Below, in pieces: positions 239-10,066 of a stretch of 10,066 nt of DNA. The DNA comes from an uncultured Oscillospiraceae bacterium (lineage in GTDB: Bacteria; Bacillota; Clostridia; Oscillospirales; Ruminococcaceae). The first letter of the stretch is position 1, and each line of letters begins with the position of its first letter. The notes beneath the pieces are model-generated. The model ran no database searches. It saw nothing but the letters and a program-made list of their open reading frames with translations, and was not told the DNA's origin. Made by a program: the position numbers and the translations under genes. The stretch spans positions 1-10,066 of the forward strand of contig UREN01000067.1 of assembly GCA_900546885.1 (NCBI GenBank), in the 5' to 3' direction.

Positions 239-312
239 TGGAGCAGATGATGGGAATCGAACCCACACAGCCAGCTTGGGAAGCTGGAGTTCTACCACTA
301 AACTACATCTGC
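239..312 (-). tRNA. tRNA-Gly(CCC)
   Basis: The minus strand folds into a full cloverleaf. The acceptor stem is GCAGATG / CATCTGC, the D arm contains AGTGGTA, and the anticodon stem CCAGC / GCTGG encloses loop TTCCCAA with anticodon CCC. The variable loop has four bases. The T arm is GTGGG / CCCAT with loop TTCGATT, and the discriminator base is U. The CCA end is encoded (239-241), so the mature body is 242-312 (71 nt). Anticodon CCC reads GGG glycine codons. It is a single-gene transcript with its own promoter (333-361) and terminator (201-236). Open frames drawn across it on either strand are artefacts. Confidence 0.97.
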
Positions 313-5449: not shown

Positions 5450-6094
5450 TTACAATTTTGCCCGCGCGTCAAACAGCTTGGGGGCTGCCAGCATCAGCAC
5501 CACGGCGGCTGCCACGGTGAAGAGGGCCTCCGGAATCATATATGTGGCGTTGTATACAATGCTGTACAGCCAGCACAGCGCGTTTTCCGCCATGCCCTCA
5601 ATGGCCTGGCCCCAGCCGAAATTGGTCATCCAATCAAAGGCATAATCGTAGTCTTTCCACACCACATAGCCCGAGAGCACGCTGCACACATAGCGCAGCA
5701 CGCACACCACAAACGTGCTTACGCCGGCGCCAACGGCACGGCCAACCTTTGAAGAGGGAAACGGCCGGGCAATGTACCATGCCAGGCCCAGCACGGTGAA
5801 GGCCAGCACATAATCCAGCAGCACGCAGCCAATTTGCGCGCCCAGCGTCTGGCAGTAGGTGAGGTTTTTCAGGCCGAGAAACAGTTGGATGAGGCTGTGC
5901 ACAAAGGCCGTGAACAGGCCCCACTTCGGGCCGTGGCGCAGGCTCATCAGAATAATGGGCAGCATGCTCACAAAGGTGACAGAGCCGCCGTGCGGCAGCT
6001 CGTAAATGGGAAAGTAGCTGAGCACGGTGCTAAGCGCAATCATCAGTGCGCCTTCCACAAGGGTGCGTGTTCTTGCGTGTGTTTTTGTCGTCAT
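5450..6094 (-). CDS. thiT: Thiamine ECF transporter substrate-binding subunit ThiT, 214 aa
   Basis: ThiT is the membrane S-component that binds thiamine and works with the shared ECF energising module (EcfA, EcfA', EcfT), none of which is encoded here. The protein is very hydrophobic, with about six membrane segments (roughly 12-30, 38-53, 56-76, 86-108, 120-143, 172-203). Family signatures are LPHGGSVTFVSMLPI (33-47), RHGPKWGL (53-60), GYVVW (142-146) and YSIVYNATYMIPE (177-189), the last including the Tyr/Asn region that lines the thiamine pocket in known ThiT. The start is ATG 6094 with AAAGGGG just upstream. The in-frame extension to 6196 runs through the attenuator and was rejected. The TPP riboswitch immediately upstream independently supports the substrate. 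Confidence 0.94.
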   Translation of the reverse strand: MTTKTHARTRTLVEGALMIALSTVLSYFPIYELPHGGSVTFVSMLPIILMSLRHGPKWGLFTAFVHSLIQLFLGLKNLTYCQTLGAQIGCVLLDYVLAFTVLGLAWYIARPFPSSKVGRAVGAGVSTFVVCVLRYVCSVLSGYVVWKDYDYAFDWMTNFGWGQAIEGMAENALCWLYSIVYNATYMIPEALFTVAAAVVLMLAAPKLFDARAKL

Positions 6095-6130
6095 GGGAAA
6101 TACCCCTTTCAAAATGATGTGACACAAAAA

Positions 6131-6173
6131 CCAAAAACGTGCGCCGTGTGGCACAAAAACCACACGGCGCACG
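6131..6173 (-). terminator. Riboswitch-controlled attenuator terminator of thiT
   Basis: On the minus strand CGTGCGCCGTGTGG (6160-6173 region) pairs perfectly over 14 bp with CCACACGGCGCACG (6138-6151), followed by TTTTTGGTTTTTG. It lies between the TPP aptamer and the thiT start codon, so it is the expression platform: TPP binding should favour it and stop transcription. A CGCCG stretch in its first arm could instead pair with CGGCG at the 3' side of the aptamer, which is a plausible antiterminator but is inferred. Confidence 0.88.
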
Positions 6174-6194
6174 CTGAGCTTTGCTGTTTTATGC

Positions 6195-6291
6195 AAAAAC
6201 TCCCTACGCCGGCATTACCCGGATCAGGTAAGAAGGGTCTATGGCCCCGCGTACGGCAGCCAAATCTAAGCCTTTCGGCCCCCCTGTTTTT
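6195..6291 (-). ncRNA. TPP (THI-box) riboswitch aptamer
   Basis: The minus strand carries the diagnostic 3' half of the THI box: ACCTGATC, then GGGTAATGCCGGCGTAGGGA. P1 is formed by AAAAAC (6286-6291) and GTTTTT (6195-6200). P2 uses GGGG and ACCC, and P3 is GCC-GAAA-GGC. The CUGAGA pyrimidine-sensing motif reads CUUAGA. An extra hairpin with a C(UACG)G tetraloop (about 6240-6263) is inserted between this motif and P2. The RNA begins a few bases after the start point of the 6305-6332 promoter. It controls thiT transcription together with the terminator at 6131-6173. Confidence 0.93.
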
Positions 6292-6304
6292 ATGTCCATT
6301 CCCC

Positions 6305-8208: not shown

Positions 8209-8249
8209 GATGGAAGAACCGAAAAAACCACAAGATATGGAGGATGCAC

Positions 8250-9500
8250 ATGTACGCGGATATGTTGGACACCATCGGCTTTGTGGCCGAAAGCGACCCG
8301 CAGGTTGCGCGGGCCATGCAGGGCGAGCTTTGCCGCCAGCGCCAGAACATTGAACTGATTGCCTCGGAAAACGTGGTATCGCCCGCCGTGCTGGCCGCCA
8401 TGGGCAGCGTGCTGACGAACAAATATGCCGAGGGCTACCCCGGCCACCGCTATTATGGCGGCTGCGCCTGGGTGGATGAAGTGGAAAACATCGCGCGCGA
8501 GCGCGCCTGCCGCCTGTTCGGCGCGCAGCACGCCAACGTGCAGCCCCACTCGGGCGCACAGGCCAACCTGGCTGTGTACTTTGCGCTTTTGAATGTGGGC
8601 GATACCGTGCTGGGCATGGACCTTTCAAACGGCGGCCACCTCACGCACGGCAGCCCCGTGAACATGAGCGGCAAAAACTACCGCTTTGTGCCCTATGGCG
8701 TGGATGAAAACGGGTATCTGGATTATGAGGACCTGGCCCGCAAAGCGCGCGAGCATCACCCCAAACTGATTGTGGCAGGCGCCTCGGCCTATGCCCGCAC
8801 CATTGATTTCGAGCGCATTGGCCGCATTGCGAAAGAGAACGGCGCGCTGTATATGGTGGATATGGCCCACATTGCGGGGCTTGTGGCCGCGGGCCTTCAC
8901 CCCAGCCCCGTGCCGTATGCAGACGTTGTCACCACCACCACGCACAAAACGCTGCGCGGCCCGCGCGGCGGCATGATTTTGTGCAAAGAGGAATATGCCA
9001 AAGCCATTGACAAAGCCATTTTCCCCGGCACGCAGGGCGGCCCGCTGGAACACATCATCGCCGCCAAAGCGGTGGCGCTGGGCGAGGCGCTGCGGCCAGA
9101 GTTTAAAGAATACCAGCAGCGCATTGTGGCAAATGCAAAGGCGCTGGCCGCCGCCCTTGTGCGCGAGGGCCTTGCCCTTGTCAGCGGCGGCACAGACAAC
9201 CACCTGATGACGGTGGACCTGCGGGGCACCGGCGTGACAGGCAAAGAGCTGGAGGCCCGCCTGGACGAAGTGCGCATCACGGCCAACAAAAACACAGTGC
9301 CGAACGACCCGGCCTCGCCCTTTGTCACCTCTGGCCTGCGCATTGGCACGCCCGCTGTCACCACGCGCGGCATGGGCGAGGCAGAGATGGAGGCAATTGC
9401 CCGCTGCATTGCAGACACTGTGTTCCGCTTTGAAGAGACAAAGCAGCGCACGCTGGAGGCTGTGCAGGCCCTGACGGCGCGGTTCCCGCTGTACGAATAA
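8250..9500 (+). CDS. glyA: Serine hydroxymethyltransferase, 416 aa
   Basis: GlyA interconverts serine and glycine with tetrahydrofolate as one-carbon acceptor, and is PLP-dependent and cytoplasmic. Motifs: NIELIASEN (33-41), [13 protein letters not shown] (59-71), PHSGAQAN (99-106), the PLP-contacting VDMAHIAG (203-210; D204, H207), the Schiff-base lysine K233 in [14 protein letters not shown] (228-241), and SGLRIGTPA with R364 binding the substrate carboxylate. Of two nearby ATGs, 8250 is preferred because GGAGG ends at 8243, six bases before it. The ATG at 8244 directly touches that site and would leave no spacing. The length is normal for bacterial GlyA. A YbjQ-family gene follows after 35 bases with no terminator between. 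Confidence 0.97.
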
Positions 9501-9535
9501 AGGGCGCGGCAGGCAGAGAGAGGAGGGCACGGCAG

Positions 9536-9853
9536 ATGCTTTTGACAACGACATCCACAATAGAGGGGCGCGCCATTCAAGAATATAAGGGCATTGTGTT
9601 CGGCGAAGTGGTGGCCGGGGTAGATGCCCTGAAAGATATGGCCGCGGGCTTCACCAATTTTTTCGGCGGCCGCTCTGGCAGCTATGAGGAAGAGTTGATT
9701 GGCGCACGCGAAGAGGCCCTGGCAGAGTTGGAACGGCGCGCTGCCGCCCTTGGCGCCAACGCCGTGGTGGGCGTGGACGTGGACTATGAGGTGCTGGGCT
9801 CGAACAACGGCATGCTGATGGTGTCGGCAAGCGGCACCGCAGTGGTAATATAG
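9536..9853 (+). CDS. YbjQ/UPF0145-family protein, 105 aa
   Basis: The protein matches the small YbjQ family (putative heavy-metal-binding domain) from end to end. It has [25 protein letters not shown] at the N-terminus, then [13 protein letters not shown] (42-54), a helix, [14 protein letters not shown] (72-85), and [13 protein letters not shown] at the C-terminus. Members form pentameric rings. No catalytic activity is established, and the metal-binding name rests on weak evidence. The ATG at 9536 has AGGAGGG at 9521-9527. It lies 35 bases after glyA in the same direction and is probably cotranscribed, but a functional link is not apparent. Confidence 0.93.
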
Positions 9854-9994
9854 CCGGGCCCGTGTAAATATACAGCGTGAAAGATATGATGGATGGAATG
9901 GAACCGCCTTGGACCGCACGGTCAGCGCAGAGAAGGTTCCTGGTGTAATAATATTCAGTTTTAGCAGGAGTGGCGCAGCGTCAGCAGCGTCACT
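9854..9994. other. Contig-end intergenic stretch with nested inverted repeats
   Basis: There is no gene here. GGAACC (9900-9905) and GGTTCC (9935-9940) are inverted copies enclosing a small hairpin GACC-GCAC-GGTC (9912-9923). A 9-bp tandem repeat of GCAGCGTCA occupies 9975-9992, right against the adapter. The base composition is lower in GC than in the genes to the left. It could be the leader of a further gene, or low-quality or chimeric contig-end sequence. Confidence 0.5.
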
Positions 9995-10066
9995 AGATCG
10001 GAAGAGCACACGTCTGAACTCCAGTCACACAGTGATCTCGTATGCCGTCTTCTGCTTGAAAAAAAA
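9995..10066 (+). other. Illumina TruSeq index adapter (sequencing artefact)
   Basis: The stretch starting AGATCGGAAGAGCACACGTC at 9995 is the Illumina TruSeq 3' adapter. It continues through its 34-base constant part to 10028, a six-base index ACAGTG (10029-10034, as I recall TruSeq index 5), then the P7 part ATCTCGTATGCCGTC... ending TGCTTG at 10058, and eight A (10059-10066) from reading past the fragment end. It is synthetic and should be trimmed. Confidence 0.99.

Follow-up and report, generated by a model that had tools for sequence, protein, structure and literature searches.

Genes and terminal sequence of the window

The window, i.e., the whole stretch of DNA analyzed in this study, is 10,066 nucleotides long and carries genes for proteins of the PHP domain, TSCPD, cytidylate kinase-like, AzlC/AzlD, SHMT and YbjQ types. 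Furthermore, a Clp-type AAA ATPase scoring under the NCBIfam equivalog cut-offs and an endonuclease III-like HhH-GPD protein, the latter just short of the cut-off for TIGR01083 (209.7 versus 211.7 bits), were identified. The following features were located.

239-312, minus strand: tRNA-Gly (anticodon ccc)
5453-6196, minus strand: thiamine transporter gene (Thia_YuaJ)
6184-6295, minus strand: TPP riboswitch (69.4 bits), ahead of the thiamine transporter gene
8244-9500, plus strand: SHMT gene
9536-9853, plus strand: YbjQ gene
9900-9994, minus strand: apparent IS3-family insertion sequence end or remnant, genomic, cut by the adapter junction (from alignment to copies in related genomes)
9961-9993, minus strand: apparent last ten codons and stop of an IS3-family transposase frame (VTLLTLRHSC, then stop; from translation)
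9995-10028, plus strand: TruSeq constant adapter, 34 bases (exact match)
10029-10034, plus strand: six-base library index ACAGTG (read directly from the sequence)
10035-10058, plus strand: P7 flow-cell part, 24 bases (exact match)
10059-10066, plus strand: eight A (from the sequence; tails in IMG/VR contigs are similar)

The closest relative of the SHMT protein among the best 80 of at least 584 matches was encoded by an uncultured Clostridia metagenome-assembled genome (L001; 96% identity over residues 1-383), the contig of which ends within the SHMT gene, followed by MAGs of Ruthenibacterium. At the DNA level, the window and L001 share about 81% identity over 4.9 kb. Since this nearest DNA is only that similar, no same-species copy of the junction at 9994/9995 was found in these searches of relatives.

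The window closes with a stretch of 72 bases made up of AGATCGGAAGAGC... (34 bases), ACAGTG, the P7 part (24 bases) and eight A. The original prediction, which had described exactly this TruSeq structure with its index, was correct in order and coordinates, without a single mismatch. Searched without fixing the index, the 64-base adapter pattern was detected once in the window (9995-10058, zero mismatches), with the constant part, the six-base index and the P7 part in the expected order, and in none of 200 dinucleotide-preserving shuffles of the window (mean 0.00). Twelve-base words from the fixed parts of the adapter were found nowhere else in the window, from which typed-in P5, Nextera and second-read TruSeq sequences were likewise absent. 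We take ACAGTG to be TruSeq index 5. The adapter points outwards and stops 8 bases before the end of the window, which was taken as the end of the contig; the eight A in between probably represent bases called beyond the end of the library molecule.

It had also been proposed that the minus-strand open reading frame at 8897-10009 is spurious. This frame exists, and its GTG start at 10009 lies inside the adapter. Because its body runs largely antisense to the SHMT and YbjQ genes, the frame is doubtful even without the adapter.

The flank before the junction and its relatives

The genomic sequence preceding the adapter, a part of the contig overlooked in the original prediction, appears to end inside the end of an IS3-family element. 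In many related copies, the minus strand encodes a protein end such as ...RIQSKTGVAPLTLRHSC followed by a stop, and many of the relatives' transposase frames end in ...TGVAPLTLRHSC and a stop. An open stretch of 306 residues at one related locus (L270) was recognized as an IS3-family transposase (NF033516, 297.1 bits versus a cut-off of 160) with the Pfam domains rve, rve_3, rve_2 and HTH_21; a stretch of 135 residues at another (L258) reached 137.7 bits, under the same cut-off. No full transposase was recognized by eye beside the repeat in the open reading frames listed for L279, L280 and L283, L280 containing masked bases.

In six aligned relatives, the conserved part starts with TGAAC beside differing flanks, its start being more variable in the wider set of 39 aligned rows. 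The outer part of the window's element has diverged from these relatives, with the edge of the element lying near 9900. This edge, together with the transposase frame end, indicates that the genomic part of the contig would terminate within an IS3-type element or a remnant of one, roughly 95 bases from its edge. One end of the element is present in the window, the share of the transposase being ten codons and the stop. Some relatives keep a short element end with other sequence straight after it (e.g., L251 and L259), suggesting that the window's copy may be a remnant as well.

A hairpin in the flank had been considered as a terminator or regulatory repeat; this candidate was dropped, as the minus strand places the hairpin in the 3' end of the transposase frame. 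An Rfam search of 9500-10066 at a lax threshold returned one chance-level match (9503-9606; E 4.4; 14.9 bits versus a gathering score of 54.6), and the conserved flank is therefore without a known RNA match. For a 21-base piece of the flank, no exact match was obtained in viral contigs.

Region 9501-9994 gave a 40-base match (98%) on another contig of G002 in a search of six relatives, and the flank piece was present in 3 out of 11 genomes of the genus, with one copy in G002, two in G015 and five in G014, the last five all lying about 37 bases from the beginning of a contig. Within the family sample, 22 out of 297 genomes carried the piece at an E-value of 1e-5 or better; as at most three candidates were scored per genome, copy counts in this sample are lower bounds. 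For at least 21 of the 42 repeat places listed, the contig breaks off no more than 85 bases away on the interior side (16 from coordinates and five from the locus ends of L260, L266, L274, L278 and L282). No contig end was counted for the other 21 places, several of which have at least 1 kb beyond the repeat.

The alignment reaches the equivalent of 9994 in 16 of the 39 related rows (14 places, two of them represented twice). There, the sequence continues with CCTG (10 rows), CCAG (4), TCTG (1) or CTAA (1), and in none of these 16 rows does it continue into the adapter (AGATCGG).

The adapter pattern in other collections

An exact scan of IMG/VR for the adapter pattern yielded at least 120 contigs, and the values given here cover these 120 contigs with 121 matches. 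All 121 matches listed face outwards, and their 30-base flanks are all distinct. In 120 of the 121 listed matches, no more than 210 bases separate the adapter from the end of the contig (median 21), and 53 of the 121 lie within 12 bases of it. Among listed matches with at least four further bases, AAAA follows the adapter directly in 111 out of 117, and the A tail consists of exactly ten A in 27 listed cases. The original prediction had suggested that further contig ends in the window's dataset may carry the adapter; in IMG/VR, several adapter-bearing contigs can occur in one dataset, 20 listed matches being found in one of them. Of the 15 datasets with two or more listed matches, 14 had a uniform index; a single match out of 121 (dataset 3300007351) carries an index other than the one prevailing in its dataset. 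ACAGTG was the sole index among the matches listed for datasets 3300004457 (7 matches), 3300017791 (2) and two datasets with one match each. Constancy of the index, position at contig ends and differing flanks are the behavior to be expected of a library barcode, and not of a biological sequence.

Two contigs of this collection deserve separate mention. In L168 (4557 bases), the adapter is present at each end (1-71 and the opposite end). L126 holds the only listed match with more than 210 bases past the adapter (627, the maximum), possibly representing a contig join through the adapter.

The family to which the nearest relative belongs was sampled with 297 genomes, eight of which contain the exact 34-base constant part, and the control pattern read backwards gave no hit among the matches listed for the same genomes. 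One member of this sample, G263, contains 108 copies of the 34-base part; at least 6 of the 13 copies listed for it lie at a contig edge, on the minus strand and within 48 bases of the contig start.

Adapter read-through is supported by the exact match at the extreme end of the contig, the correct order and orientation of the parts and the A tail, as well as by the constant index per dataset elsewhere and by the relatives, which do not continue into the adapter. That the last 72 bases are leftover Illumina TruSeq adapter and not bacterial DNA is virtually certain, and no evidence against this identity was found in our analyses. If the stretch were instead genuine sequence from the organism or from a construct, it would have to reproduce an exact oligonucleotide structure with a barcode at the very position of the contig end, where relatives continue differently, and the index shared within datasets by unrelated contigs would be left to coincidence; with nothing found in its support, this explanation is practically inconceivable.

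Origin of the contig tip and comparison with known systems

The tip would have arisen from a library molecule with an insert ending at 9994 and shorter than the read. Sequencing would then have passed beyond the insert into the adapter, the index and the P7 part, and further bases would have been called after the molecule had ended. The assembler may have built the end of the contig from this short-insert, incompletely trimmed read. As for the site of the break, the sequence appears to enter a multi-copy IS3-family element near 9900, where related short-read contigs also stop. Because relatives have sequence past the equivalent of 9994 and their contig ends cluster at copies of the element, assembly likely stopped at this element, and we consider the repeat to be the probable cause of the contig break. 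Solitary ends in relatives, the diverged outer part of the window's copy and an argument made in PMC11536531 were counted against this reading.

According to that publication (PMC11536531; BMC Genomics 2024, 25:1033), the same artefact occurs in the MGnify databases, where 1110 out of 15,657 reference assemblies were enriched (p < 0.01; about 157 expected). Its authors propose that adapters themselves can break contigs, and report that contigs merged once contaminated ends had been trimmed. Applied to the window, adapter words present in many reads would have caused the assembly graph to branch, the position at the element end being coincidental. Consistent with this, the adapter junctions in IMG/VR were not preferentially located in hairpin-forming DNA (55 out of 120 had a lower folding value than their own control; mean -9.0 versus -8.6), and such junctions therefore have no general tie to structured DNA. 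On the other hand, contig ends also cluster at the element where the adapter is unseen, as in the five contigs of G014, a genome that lacks an exact copy of the 34-base adapter part. A break caused by the adapter itself is a less likely, if conceivable, course of events than the stop at the repeat. The window's own junction is not extra structured either (-15.3 versus a window mean of -14.7 with a standard deviation of 5.7).

A wider rule, namely that multi-copy insertion-sequence boundaries are favored sites for adapter-tipped ends of metagenome contigs, so that tips would mark repeat edges, appears improbable on this one case. Among the publications considered by title and start of abstract, none was recognized that combines adapter contamination with insertion sequences at contig ends.

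The tail is an ordinary artefact, known in print (PMC11536531), and nothing biologically novel. The original prediction had further deduced that the assembly was built from untrimmed reads. An adapter was indeed left in the assembly, but "untrimmed" is too strong a word; "incompletely trimmed" is safer, as the studies behind the contaminated databases of PMC11536531 all reported, according to that publication, efforts of adapter cleaning. As a matter of data hygiene, this 72-base tail should be removed before gene calling, binning and homology searches, since genes, repeats or host links deduced from it would be false. The index, in turn, could help to tie contigs to their sequencing library.

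Compared with IS3-family insertion sequences (NF033516), the flank is similar in that the transposase frame of the relatives of the repeat ends in nearly the same peptide as in the window; it differs in that the window holds merely about 95 bases, with a diverged outer terminal part. The contamination described in PMC11536531 agrees with the present case in the forward adapter, with the prefix AGATCGGAAGAG, being located near contig ends and its reverse complement at contig starts. Whereas a 12-base prefix was counted there, the window keeps the full adapter together with the index, the P7 part and the A tail.
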